The position numbers and the translations under genes were made by a program. This document shows, piece after piece, positions 24,308 to 31,822 of a stretch of 32,799 nt of DNA. The notes beneath the pieces were generated by a model that was not told the DNA's origin, searched no databases, and worked only from the letters and a program-made list of their open reading frames with translations. How positions within the stretch are numbered: the stretch's first letter is position 1; the number at the start of each line of letters is the position of its first letter. This DNA is from a virus. The stretch spans positions 1 through 32,799 of the IMG/VR virus record IMGVR_UViG_3300021964_000275; one strand, written 5' to 3'.

Positions 24308-24530
24308 TTCTTGTTGGCTTTAATGTATAGCCTAGATAATTAAGTGCCGCTTCTAAGTCATTGATTCTTGGATTGTATCTTGTGCGCCAGTTTCTTAGCG
24401 TATCTCTATGCAATCCTACACGCTCTGCTAAATCATAATGACAAACTTTTTGTCTGTACATTTCTTCAAATAAAAACCGCACATTAGGTTCATTAGTTTT
24501 TATTTCTGGGCTGTACCTGAACTTCTTCAA
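24297..24530 (-). CDS. small HTH (Cro/CI-like) protein, 77 aa
   Basis: Helix-turn-helix around YDLAERVGLHRDTLRNWRTR followed by INDLEAALNYLGYTL, the layout of XRE-family DNA-binding proteins. The start is TTG 24530, overlapping the upstream gene by 38 bases; no strong ribosome-binding site is visible, and ATG 24461 would keep the HTH but trim the N terminus. It lies beyond the early operon terminator, so it is expressed by read-through or separately. Its target is unknown; the palindromes described here are candidates. Confidence 0.68.
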   Translation of the reverse strand: MKKFRYSPEIKTNEPNVRFLFEEMYRQKVCHYDLAERVGLHRDTLRNWRTRYNPRINDLEAALNYLGYTLKPTRIKQ

Positions 24531-24720
24531 TGTCTATTACCTCATGTTCTAATACTTTGTATCTACTCATAGACTTGGTTCTATTAGTTACTCTTTCCAT
24601 TGCTAACTCTTTGGCTTCTTTTTTATCTAAAGCCTTAACGGTTATGCATCTTTCTACTGTAGTTTCTACCCATACATGAAATGTGCTTGCTTTATGCCGA
24701 TGTTTGGTTTGTATTCTCAT
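24493..24720 (-). CDS. small basic protein of unknown function, 75 aa
   Basis: Begins MRIQTKHRHKASTFHVWVET, with TVKALDKKEAKELAMERVTN and an acidic end (EHEVIDIEEVQVQ). The ATG is preceded by CGGAGA, 10 bases after the U-run of the terminator at 24734. No family is recognised. The alternation of beta-like and helical segments suggests a small alpha/beta fold, similar in type to the protein at 29093. Confidence 0.6.
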   Translation of the reverse strand: MRIQTKHRHKASTFHVWVETTVERCITVKALDKKEAKELAMERVTNRTKSMSRYKVLEHEVIDIEEVQVQPRNKN

Positions 24721-24733
24721 AATTTTCTCCGTT

Positions 24734-24771
24734 AAAAAAAGCGTATCTGCGGAGGAAACACACAGATACGC
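24734..24771 (-). terminator. rho-independent terminator of the early operon
   Basis: Read leftward: GCGTATCTG, a 13-base loop, CAGATACGC, then seven Ts (A run 24734-24740 on the top strand). The stem is a perfect 9 bp. It lies 39 bases after the stop of the SSB-like gene and directly after the hairpin at 24774-24806. It ends the long leftward operon; the two small genes beyond it must depend on read-through or another promoter. Confidence 0.88.
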
Positions 24772-24773
24772 TC

Positions 24774-24806
24774 GGCTTGGAAAGGAGAACTAATCGAAAC
24801 CAAGCC
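24774..24806 (-). ncRNA. 3' UTR stem-loop complementary to early gene leaders
   Basis: Stem GGCTTGG/CCAAGCC (24774-24780 with 24800-24806) closes a 19-base loop. In the leftward transcript the loop reads UUUCGAUUAGUUCUCCUUU. Thirteen of these bases (UUAGUUCUCCUUU) are the exact complement of AAAGGAGAACTAA in the leaders of the genes starting at 31805, 26796 and 26006; eleven match the leaders at 30998, 30052 and 27873. Stem-loop seed plus terminator is the usual layout of a 3' UTR-derived small RNA. Regulation of translation is inferred. Confidence 0.5.
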
Positions 24807-24810
24807 TGTG

Positions 24811-25209
24811 TTAGAATGGAATATCAGGAACGTGATACTCATCAGCTTTAGGTTTGTCAGTAGCTGGCTCTATCACTGTATCTCTATTTTGTTTTTCTGA
24901 CAACTGCATAGTCATGTAAGGTTTGTCATCCTTCATGCCTTTCCATCCTGCAATGCGCCACTTTGCATGTATGCCTTCGAGTGGCCCTGAATAGTCTGGT
25001 GCTTTGTCATTACCATTCTTCTCGTTGTCAAACATCACGCCAATCTTTTGATAAATCTCAATGCGCTTCTCGCCAGATTTAGATTGGGCTAGTATGAGTG
25101 CAACATTTTGGTCTTCACCATACATATTCAGTTTACCTTGAAGTATGAACTGCTGTTCTGGAAATGGTTTGAAAGCCGCACCTCTGTTTGTGTTATCATA
25201 ATCAGTCAT
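24811..25209 (-). CDS. SSB-like protein with DIPF tail, 132 aa
   Basis: N terminus NTNRGAAFKPFPEQQFILQG, middle KAPDYSGPLEGIHAKWRIAG and KPYMTMQLSEK resemble phage proteins of the DUF736/ssDNA-binding type. The C terminus ends PDIPF after an acidic stretch; DIPF is the conserved protein-interaction tip of bacterial SSB, used to recruit replication and recombination enzymes. I therefore call it a probable single-stranded DNA-binding protein. It is last in the recombination module (exonuclease, annealing protein, winged helix, this). Ribosome-binding site AAAGG. Confidence 0.65.
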   Translation of the reverse strand: MTDYDNTNRGAAFKPFPEQQFILQGKLNMYGEDQNVALILAQSKSGEKRIEIYQKIGVMFDNEKNGNDKAPDYSGPLEGIHAKWRIAGWKGMKDDKPYMTMQLSEKQNRDTVIEPATDKPKADEYHVPDIPF

Positions 25210-25212
25210 TGT

Positions 25213-25554
25213 TTATTTACCTTTCTGTAATCTATATGATGGTAGTTGACCTTTGATTCGTTTTGTTTCTATTACATGCCCAGCTTTTCTAGCTAGTTTT
25301 AGATAGGTAATAGCTGTCTTTTTTGTGACATTCAGATTAGATGCTATCTTATCTATTCTTTTGAAACGCCCAGTAATAACAGGCAGTATTGATTCATAAT
25401 ACTTCTGTTGTTGTTTTGTAATTACAAGAGATTCATTATGGCTTTTAACTTCTTTGCCATACCTCATAACCTCATTCATAATCCATATGATGCGTTCTTG
25501 TTTTTGTTTAATGTCTTGTATATCAGATTGTATTTGCTTGATAACCCCAAACAT
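25213..25554 (-). CDS. winged-helix protein with N-terminal coiled coil, 113 aa
   Basis: The N-terminal third is a coiled coil (IKQIQSDIQDIKQKQERIIW). The C-terminal half has a winged-helix pattern (KRIDKIASNLNVTKKTAITY, KLARKAGHVIETKRIKGQLP). It may be a transcription or replication regulator. Start ATG 25554 overlaps the stop of the annealing-protein gene (TAATG) and follows GGAGG; it lies 3 bases upstream of the SSB-like gene. Confidence 0.68.
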   Translation of the reverse strand: MFGVIKQIQSDIQDIKQKQERIIWIMNEVMRYGKEVKSHNESLVITKQQQKYYESILPVITGRFKRIDKIASNLNVTKKTAITYLKLARKAGHVIETKRIKGQLPSYRLQKGK

Positions 25555-26006
25555 TACCAGCCTCCTTTGCTTTTGTTACCACTGTCTGCGGCATATTTGT
25601 TACCATCCATCTCACCTAAGAATACATCAGCGTTGAATCCCAGATGTGACAGTGCTTTAGTTAGACCATCTGTGATAGCCATCTTTGGTGCGTCTTCTGC
25701 AATGCGTCCTTTACTTGCGTTGTAAAAAGTACGACAGCCAGAAAAAGGGCCAAATATATTTTCACGAGAAACAGTCCAGATAGATACATCTGCAATAACA
25801 GCGGTGTCACCGCCTGAAAGGTTGATAAACCGTGTTTCATTTATCCAGCCCCAGCCTTGACCAACAGGTCCAAACTGTTCTGTTGCACATCGCACTTGAT
25901 ACTGTGGATCAATAGCAGTAAACGAGCGTTGCCCAAAAGATACCTTCTTTAGATACTGCTTGTCTGATTTGGACACTGCGTTCCAAAGCTTCATATTGTC
26001 TGACAT
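25554..26006 (-). CDS. Rad52/Erf-like single-strand annealing protein
   Basis: 150 aa. KQYLKKVSFGQRSFTAIDPQ, QFGPVGQGWGW and the C-terminal APKMAITDGLTKALSHLGFN followed by DVFLGEMDGNKY are typical of phage Rad52/22-type annealing proteins (Sak/Erf superfamily). It pairs complementary strands exposed by the exonuclease encoded just upstream, for recombination and concatemer formation. The ATG follows AAAGGAGAACTAA, whose TAA is the stop codon of the exonuclease gene. Confidence 0.8.
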   Translation of the reverse strand: MSDNMKLWNAVSKSDKQYLKKVSFGQRSFTAIDPQYQVRCATEQFGPVGQGWGWINETRFINLSGGDTAVIADVSIWTVSRENIFGPFSGCRTFYNASKGRIAEDAPKMAITDGLTKALSHLGFNADVFLGEMDGNKYAADSGNKSKGGW

Positions 26007-26007
26007 C

Positions 26008-26796
26008 TTAGTTCTCCTTTGTTGTTATGCGTAACGAGCCACGCTTGTCACGTTTGATTGTAAGCAAGTCGCAATATACTTCTCGCTCATTGTCACCAAC
26101 CATTGCTTTTAGGTCTGACTTTGCAGACTCAAATAACTTGGCTGATTGTTCCTGTTCAATATAGTCATGGCAACGTGAGATAAACTCATTGTCGCTTGAC
26201 GCATCTCTGCGTACCATGCCATCAACAGGTATCTTGTCTATAGATACAGGTGATATTTGGTCATCACCGAAAGGGCGTGTGTCTTCTTTGACATGCCCCC
26301 AAAACTCTTTGAGGTGTACTTGCATCTTGTAAATGTAGTCCCAATCCTTTTTGATATAAACACATTCCCATCTGCGGTTGCCAAAGATTACAGATAAATA
26401 ACATCCGTCTTTAATGCTAACCCAAAGATAGAATTGTATCTGCGGCATATACATTTTGAGGCAACCTTCCATTGTGTTGCGTTCATATGTATGCTTTGCT
26501 TCAACAATTTCTTGAGTGTTATAGATACAAGCATCGACAGTACCTTTGCATGGTACGCCTTCCCAGTTCAAAGTAAACTCTCGTTGCTTTTCTAACTGGT
26601 CTTGTGTTGGGTCAAGTTCATGGTTAAGAAACCAGTGAAGATTAAAGTCTTCTGTGTGTGTGCCTAGCTGTACTGCAAGATGATTAGATAAATCTTCTGG
26701 TTCAGTACGCCCTGTCTTTTCTTCCCACAGTGATGTCCAATCACCATCCATAATGCGCCTCATGTCTGAGCCGCCAATAAAGCCTTGTCTATTCAT
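26008..26796 (-). CDS. YqaJ/lambda-type recombination exonuclease
   Basis: 262 aa. FIGGSDM (6-12), GTHTE with E49, GTVDA with D88, EAK with E99 and K101, and QIQFYLW (119-125) form the catalytic order of the YqaJ/lambda Exo family. It degrades one strand from a DNA end to leave a 3' overhang for the annealing protein next to it. The ribosome-binding site AAAGGAGAACTAA belongs to the conserved leader set. The short gap upstream (26797-26828) holds nothing else visible. Confidence 0.86.
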   Translation of the reverse strand: MNRQGFIGGSDMRRIMDGDWTSLWEEKTGRTEPEDLSNHLAVQLGTHTEDFNLHWFLNHELDPTQDQLEKQREFTLNWEGVPCKGTVDACIYNTQEIVEAKHTYERNTMEGCLKMYMPQIQFYLWVSIKDGCYLSVIFGNRRWECVYIKKDWDYIYKMQVHLKEFWGHVKEDTRPFGDDQISPVSIDKIPVDGMVRRDASSDNEFISRCHDYIEQEQSAKLFESAKSDLKAMVGDNEREVYCDLLTIKRDKRGSLRITTKEN

Positions 26797-26828
26797 AGTT
26801 AGTTCTCCTTTAGTTTATTCTACTGCAA

Positions 26829-27873: not shown

Positions 27874-28198
27874 TGTAGTTCTCCTTGAGTAATGGTGCTA
27901 TGTATTTTTCAAACACATCTGCATCAAACATTATAATAGTTTTTGGATCACCTGTCCTGCGTTTATAGATAAGAGCATCACGCATTACAGTGAATGGATT
28001 AGGAAATCCAGACTTGTCACGGTACTTAACTTCCGTTACCAGTCTGTGTCCTCCGATTTCCCAGACGATGTCGCCAGAATATTCTCCTCCCAACGAGCCT
28101 GAAAGCGGTTGCCTTTTCGCTTTGAAGCCAATTTTCTTGAGCCACTCTGTGATTTTTCTTTCGTGATAGTTTCCTTTGTTGCGACTCTTTGAAGCCAC
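27836..28198 (-). CDS. Holliday junction resolvase-like PDDEXK nuclease
   Basis: 120 aa. SRNKGNYHERKITEWLKKIG with E13, the Ser/Gly loop QPLSGSLGGEYSGDIVW with D43, and VTEVKYRDK with E56 and K58 give the Hjc-type resolvase core. It would cut four-way junctions made by recombination or replication before packaging. GGAGG precedes GTG 28198 by 5 bases and TTG 28201 by 2, so GTG is preferred. It overlaps the zinc-ribbon gene by 163 bases and the initiator by 38. Confidence 0.82.
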   Translation of the reverse strand: MASKSRNKGNYHERKITEWLKKIGFKAKRQPLSGSLGGEYSGDIVWEIGGHRLVTEVKYRDKSGFPNPFTVMRDALIYKRRTGDPKTIIMFDADVFEKYIAPLLKENYNVIPNDGEGNQS

Positions 28199-30052: not shown

Positions 30053-30080
30053 TGTAGTTCTCCTTCTTTATAATGCAGGG

Positions 30081-30998: not shown

Positions 30999-31009
30999 AA
31001 TAGTTCTCC

Positions 31010-31192
31010 TTATTCTGACATGATTCGCATTAGGCCACCGACAAATGCGATGCCCATACCAAAGATAATTAATGCTACTTGCACCATAAATTCATCATCA
31101 GTCATTGGTGCGTGTACTTCATCAACCATCATTGATGCTATGATTACAGATGTAAAACCTGTAAATATTAGTGTATTAGATATGAGTTTCAT
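31010..31192 (-). CDS. small two-helix membrane protein, 60 aa
   Basis: Hydrophobic helices at about residues 3-22 (LISNTLIFTGFTSVIIASMM) and 36-55 (FMVQVALIIFGMGIAFVGGL) with an acidic loop (VDEVHAPMTDDE). First gene after promoter E, with a strong GGAGG directly beside a leader hairpin. Early membrane proteins of phages often alter the host envelope or block superinfection; the role here is unknown. Confidence 0.66.
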   Translation of the reverse strand: MKLISNTLIFTGFTSVIIASMMVDEVHAPMTDDEFMVQVALIIFGMGIAFVGGLMRIMSE

Positions 31193-31202
31193 TGTTTCCT
31201 CC

Positions 31203-31246
31203 TACTGCATACTTGCAGTATATAATGGTAAGTCGCAGTGTGCAAC
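31203..31246 (-). promoter_or_regulatory. early operon promoter E with palindrome and leader hairpin
   Basis: Read leftward: -35 TTGCAC (31240-31245), 17-base spacer, -10 TATACT (31217-31222). The palindrome GTTGC-ACACT-GCGAC (31232-31246) overlaps the -35, as at elements A and B. A perfect 7-bp inverted repeat TACTGCA/TGCAGTA (31203-31220) lies between -10 and ribosome-binding site and would form a leader hairpin ending next to GGAGG. This starts the main early operon after the upstream terminator. Confidence 0.62.
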
Positions 31247-31805: not shown

Positions 31806-31822
31806 TTTAGTTCTCCTTTGTT

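Follow-up and report, generated by a model that had tools for sequence, protein, structure and literature searches.

The window, meaning the whole stretch of DNA analysed here, is the 32.8-kb record of a tailed phage that has not been cultured. Its structural genes (for terminase, connector, and the major head and tail proteins) run rightward, and its early block runs leftward on the minus strand from 31805 or beyond down to 24811. Early genes are denoted here by their start positions, and the features of interest are collected in Table 1. The last early gene was assigned as ssb-like through the PHROG ssb families, which were matched by 11 of 11 aligned homologues (best 1.7e-10), the window protein by itself reaching merely 4e-4; a profile search of PDB sequences with the ssb alignment gave no match. 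The acidic DIPF tip at the end of the protein is a mark of SSBs. The product of gene 26006 matches a PHROG exonuclease family, and its distant relatives are annotated as Rad52-like or annealing proteins.

Table 1. Features of the early operon and its 3' end (leaders are named after the gene that they precede).
Feature	Position	Strand	Description	Basis
ssb-like gene	24811..25209	-	last early-operon gene; its 3'UTR is the element; protein ends DIPF
Hairpin 1 of the 3'UTR	24774..24806	-	read 24806-24774 as GGCTTGG-TTTCGATTAGTTCTCCTTT-CCAAGCC; stem 7 bp, loop 19 nt; 13-nt anti-leader 24793-24781	sequence, fold, exact-match scan, covariation
Early-operon intrinsic terminator	24734..24771	-	stem arms GCGTATCTG (24771-24763) and CAGATACGC (24749-24741); loop TGTTTCCTCC (24762-24750); T7 at 24740-24734
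Leader AAAGGAGAACTAA of gene 31805 (138 aa)	31807..31819	-	13-nt complement; predicted duplex with loop 1 -17.5 kcal/mol
Leader AGTAGGAGGAAACA of 60-aa ORF 31192-31010	31193..31206	-	complement of loop 2
Leader of gene 30998 (DUF932, 1.3e-21)	31000..31012	-	11-nt complement; predicted duplex -15.9 kcal/mol
Leader of gene 30052 (85 aa)	30054..30066	-	11-nt complement; predicted duplex -16.9 kcal/mol
Leader of gene 27873 (replication-initiation O-like, PHROG 2.5e-26)	27875..27887	-	11-nt complement; predicted duplex -15.9 kcal/mol
Leader of gene 26796 (RecE-like/YqaJ exonuclease)	26799..26811	-	13-nt complement; predicted duplex -17.2 kcal/mol
Leader of gene 26006	26008..26020	-	13-nt complement; predicted duplex -17.5 kcal/mol

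Just 3' of gene 31805-31389 we observed a terminator-like hairpin followed by T6 (31366-31351, minus strand), given which this first early gene may form a separate transcript of its own. At the other end of the block, a 75-aa ORF (24493-24720, minus strand) with its own GGAG leader and without a confident family match lies just beyond the operon terminator. A separate sRNA promoter inside ssb was considered and rejected, the candidate being one weak 9/12 site (24903-24875) that by eye was not conserved in the relative L001.

Hairpin, terminator and complementarity in the window

Hairpin 1 lies directly 3' of the ssb stop codon and is followed by a strong terminator. The first-pass annotation had described this arrangement as a stem-loop with a 7-bp stem and a 19-nt loop preceding a terminator, and its coordinates and counts were right by both sequence and fold. 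The 85-nt region folds at -31.6 kcal/mol (z = -5.6), and 0 shuffles were equally good. Searching the whole window against Rfam gave no match at the gathering threshold, and searching the element region with E up to 10 returned chance matches only.

The part of loop 1 that holds the anti-leader reads TTAGTTCTCCTTT. The anti-leader itself, UUAGUUCUCCUUU, pairs with six early leaders over 13, 13, 13, 11, 11 and 11 nt, and an exact-match scan agreed with the earlier assignment of the 13-nt complements to genes 31805, 26796 and 26006 and of the 11-nt complements to genes 30998, 30052 and 27873. The sequence AAAGGAGAACTAA occurs exactly 4 times in the window, as antisense in the loop and in the leaders of the former three genes; the leaders of the latter three have 11 nt in common with it. 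Predicted duplexes between loop 1 and the six target leaders range from -15.9 to -17.5 kcal/mol, and the leader of ssb itself reaches -5.1 against the element and is not a target. The sole late gene with strong predicted pairing is gene 8322 on the plus strand, which encodes a 754-aa tail protein (AAAGGAGAAGCTA, -15.3 kcal/mol).

Allowing at most 2 mismatches, the window contains 10 matches to the 13-mer vs 1.1 in shuffles. When the 3'UTR was shuffled, a 13-nt complement to any leader arose in 1 of 2000 shuffles, and complements of at least 9 nt to at least 6 leaders in 5 of 2000. Taken alone, these chance statistics of the window are suggestive, and it is the comparison with relatives that settles the matter.

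The element in related loci

We searched IMG/VR with a single ssb protein, three ssb alignments and the protein encoded at 25554-26006 as queries and added three contigs from bacterial genomes, yielding about 300 loci with 94 distinct sequences 3' of ssb. Gene starts in these relatives were called by a simple script, and many of the contigs are partial. The motif GTTCTCC, the antisense of GGAGAAC, was found right after ssb in 50 of the 94 distinct 3'UTRs. More than 20 of these 50 present it in a hairpin loop closed by 6-10 bp, with stems that bear no relation to one another; only 38 of the 50 UTRs have a stem of 5 bp or more enclosing the motif. The stem is TGAGGCAAGT/GCTTGCCTCA in L131, and in its near relative L180 AGCAGGT/ACCTGCT encloses the same TGATTAGTTCTCC; it is TGCGATAG/CTATCGCA in L171 and GCGGCTGG/CCAGCCGC in L203, and L223 carries a further loop-borne anti-leader with a wholly different stem. 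The hairpin is less clear in the L262 and L037 groups, and in the latter the anti-leader lies partly in the stem rather than in the loop.

Several loci depart from this pattern. L022 and L166 carry a second GTTCTCC copy inside the terminator loop 3' of ssb, so that a single RNA would have two loops directed at the same leaders. The sequence 3' of ssb in L214 is without GTTCTCC but contains ATCATCCTCCC, which matches one of the phage's own leaders (GGGAGGATGAT) over 11 nt; this may be the same arrangement with a different leader sequence. L107 and L113 have GGAGAACCAA leaders and, in the ssb 3'UTR, a hairpin loop GTTGGTGGTTCTTC that is one base off (a G-U pair), and they may be functional members although we counted them as element-less. 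Another gene directly follows ssb in the L041, L085, L154 and L089 groups, where early leaders are diverse and both the element and the shared leader are absent.

Three closely related phage contigs came from bacterial bins (L164, L165 and L166; two Rhodobacterales (Rhodobacteraceae), one Opitutae), which may be mis-binned virus contigs and which we did not take as host evidence. Cultured phages gave no match in a DNA search and none by tblastn with ssb. By structural gene, the closest cultured relative is Pelagibacter phage Hodr (connector 62.6%), which has ordinary AGGAGG-type leaders and no 3'UTR of the element type. Relatives of the 25554-26006 gene occur in Pelagibacter, Sulfitobacter and Pseudoalteromonas phages, and the annotated ones differ in operon layout.

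Specificity and predicted regulon

Across element-bearing loci, GGAGAAC leaders preceded 229 of 644 operon-side genes vs 2 of 571 other genes. Phages scored both for the anti-leader and for GGAGAAC leaders on at least 20% of genes fell into 39 with both and 27 with neither, the discordant ones numbering 5 and 1. Among UTRs with GTTCTCC, on which these figures are conditioned, 4.3 kb of ssb UTR contained the cognate anti-leader 8-mer 39 times vs 5 times in 480 kb of other sense strand (870-fold enrichment), and non-cognate 8-mers were found 2 times in the ssb UTR. The earlier proposal of an element aimed at early leaders thus fits its distribution, the anti-leader being confined to the ssb 3'UTR and the shared leader to early genes.

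We then compared orthologues between phages with and without the element. A GGAGAAC leader was present in 44 of 49 element phages vs 8 of 39 others for the RecE-like gene, 25 of 31 vs 6 of 30 for the 26006 gene, 15 of 26 vs 1 of 16 for the initiator and 24 of 34 vs 1 of 14 for the DUF932 gene; for ssb the counts were 3 of 50 vs 0 of 41. By these counts the element addresses genes for recombination and for the start of replication and spares the RNA-carrying ssb gene.

Coevolution of leader and loop

Leaders were classed by the base after GGAGAAC as T (GGAGAACTAA), C (GGAGAACCAA) or A (GGAGAACAA, GGAGAACACA). This base and its UTR partner were concordant in 37 of 39 phages (A 20, T 11, C 6), and mean agreement with the own leaders was 0.753 vs 0.376 +/- 0.050 with swapped leaders (10,000 permutations, maximum 0.564). 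Beyond the first base after GGAGAAC agreement was weak. On a four-gene (four-protein) tree, six changes were needed on the leader side and six on the UTR side. Strictly independent pairs on well-supported branches numbered 1-3, none of them contrary; as this is too few for a sign test, we used a tree-based null in which the leader base was simulated about 10,000 times, and agreement never exceeded 30 of 39. Given the six changes per side and this maximum, relatedness does not explain the concordance. The first-pass annotation had offered leaders that change without the loop following as grounds for giving up its proposal; over about six changes on the tree the loop did follow in 37 of 39 phages.

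Class switches between relatives include L287 (A/A) beside L262, L282 and L295 (T/T), L223 (A/A) beside L213 (C/C), and L131 and L180 (T/T) near L171 (C/C). Both exceptions (L203 and L102) belong to a single clade, in which the diagnostic base is mismatched and the loop agrees with the leaders 5' of the core instead.

A candidate second anti-leader

A seventh leader, AGTAGGAGGAAACA, is complementary over 10 nt to the terminator loop, TGTTTCCTCC. Its L094 counterpart is longer by an A, and the terminator loop of that phage reads TTTTCCTCC; in L006 the loop TTGTCCTCC stands opposite GGAGGACAA leaders. For this loop (loop 2) in 11 phages, swapped leaders equalled or beat the own ones in just 33 of 20,000 permutations, a statistic that ignores kinship. 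We regard the terminator loop as a putative second anti-leader with weaker support.

Proposed mechanism and alternatives

Our main reading, held with a probability of roughly 0.78, is that the 3' end of the early transcript (about 24810-24734) acts as an antisense RNA that blocks ribosome binding on early leaders of the same operon. The seed would be presented in the loop of hairpin 1, and the operon terminator would form the 3' end of the RNA. After transcription has reached the operon end, this tail RNA would find its partners in extended Shine-Dalgarno leaders (AAGGAGAACUAA type), which in the same operon precede genes for recombination, replication initiation and other early functions; pairing over the Shine-Dalgarno would block 30S binding. 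The antisense species could be a free processed sRNA or could still be part of the mRNA. The ssb gene, with its different leader, would escape and is presumably required throughout replication, and loop 2 would add at least one further target. The expected outcome is negative feedback on early translation, and because the RNA exists only after operon read-through, repression would be delayed. In this uncultured marine phage group, the finished early transcript thus probably switches off its own early genes: the RNA would accumulate, repress translation by pairing and shift the phage away from early synthesis. Counting against this reading are the mismatched diagnostic base of L203 and L102, the partly stem-borne anti-leader of the L037 group, the 12 of 50 UTRs without an enclosing stem, the small number of strictly independent pairs, the weak agreement past the first base after GGAGAAC and the fairly strong duplex predicted for late gene 8322.

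Much of the above would also be seen if the loop acted in cis only, folding back on the leaders of the same mRNA and altering transcript stoichiometry or stability with no free sRNA. The element and its targets lie in one co-directional block, the same covariation would be expected, and ssb holds no evident conserved promoter for a separate sRNA. Free 3'UTR-derived sRNAs, however, typically have the seed in a loop followed by a terminator, which is the layout found here, and if the terminator-like site at 31366-31351 gives gene 31805 its own transcript, repression of that gene would need action in trans. Sequence cannot separate cis from trans action, and we hold the cis-only explanation to be possible and rather doubtful. 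The RNA might instead serve mainly to silence superinfecting related phages or act on host GGAGAAC mRNAs, self-repression being secondary. T, C and A leader/loop classes do coexist in related phages, like compatibility groups, and action of phage sRNAs on host mRNAs is known for VpdS and PreS (PMC12197685), but the conserved pairing is to the phage's own early leaders, nearly the sole GGAGAAC genes in these loci, and such a main role appears unlikely.

The loop could also mimic the 16S anti-Shine-Dalgarno tail, or be some ribosome-related decoy, with no particular leaders aimed at. The first-pass annotation had read the CUCCUU core of loop 1 in this way, and the terminator loop contains UCCUCC. 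The 16S tail is fixed, though, so a mimic of it should show no covariation beyond the Shine-Dalgarno core, and loop bases outside that core do track the leaders; the element is also generally absent where phage leaders are ordinary Shine-Dalgarno sequences. We therefore do not favour the mimic, which we consider very improbable. Scarcely credible is that the motif is the ribosome-binding site of an opposite-strand gene or an inverted leader copy left by recombination: the complementary strand does read AAAGGAGAACTAA, but just 4 of 50 cases have an opposite-strand start codon 2-12 nt further downstream that opens an ORF of 30 aa or more, and the motif is kept while the surrounding stems are replaced, and tracks leader changes.

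Early-gene shut-off in phages is usually achieved by proteins or by transcription switching. Under the antisense reading, the operon end itself appears to encode the stop signal, no regulator protein would be required, and shut-off would have to wait until transcription of the entire operon is complete. We give even odds to the broader idea that a widespread uncultured family of marine phages uses a shared early-leader 'address', read by an operon-end antisense RNA, as an operon-wide translational off switch, with coevolving classes that could also be compatibility groups. Coevolving address and reader sequences in dozens of phages make this testable by simple reporter swaps, and early regulons of uncultured phages would be predictable from sequence alone via such pairs. 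If true, 3'UTR-derived self-regulation would be extended from bacteria to phages, with one RNA acting on many genes of its own operon.

Comparison with known systems

Anti-Shine-Dalgarno hairpin loops are a feature of the cuckoo/CcsR sRNAs. In alphaproteobacteria RNase E releases these RNAs from the region 3' of a small gene, and they end at a terminator (PMC10253847). They occur with DUF1127 genes and have host targets, whereas the phage element follows an ssb-like gene, and its seed reaches past the Shine-Dalgarno and changes in step with phage leaders; a scan of ten early proteins for DUF1127 gave no match, and the upstream gene is ssb-like.

Among phage RNAs, the c4 RNAs of P1 and P7 and the sar RNA of P22, listed in the 2025 phage sRNA review (PMC12197685), are likewise antisense RNAs that block translation of phage mRNA, but they have a single target (ant) and a role in lysis-lysogeny or immunity, whereas the phage element would have multiple targets and lies at the 3' end of an early replication/recombination operon. 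VpdS of VP882 and PreS/LPR1 of lambda are phage-encoded base-pairing sRNAs, as proposed for the element; that review's account of them describes Hfq-dependent action on host and some phage mRNAs rather than operon feedback (PMC12197685). In the portion of the PhiKZ Grad-seq study concerned (PMC8545117), the PHIKZ297/298 intergenic ncRNA resembles the element in deriving from untranslated sequence of a phage transcript and is stable, and the UTR-region ncRNAs of PhiKZ appear there without assigned targets or function. CisR is a host 3'UTR sRNA that acts on a phage mRNA (PMC13250501). The replication/lysogeny section and summary table of the 2025 review hold no 3'UTR-derived regulator of its own operon (PMC12197685).

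The first-pass annotation knew of no described system of this kind. For phages this stands, as we found no self-regulating 3'UTR-derived sRNA in the open-access literature, which is not proof of novelty; for bacteria it does not, since OppZ and CarZ of Vibrio cholerae regulate their own operons by 3'UTR sRNAs (PMC7398697). More generally, an sRNA derived from a 3'UTR takes over the terminator of its operon and has a single-stranded seed; some such RNAs act as repressors of the operon they come from (PMC7398697; review PMC9438474), among them OppZ and CarZ, after RNase E cleavage (Hoyos et al. 2020, PMC7398697). Like OppZ and CarZ, the phage element would yield an RNA from the operon 3' end; it uses the operon terminator and is complementary to translation start regions of its own operon, and one cistron is spared in each case (oppA in the OppZ system, ssb in the phage element). 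RNase E and Hfq dependence is demonstrated for OppZ and CarZ. OppZ and CarZ control bacterial metabolic operons through one main pairing site each; the phage element, in contrast, matches at least six leaders with one shared sequence, presents two putative seed loops and falls into coevolving classes.
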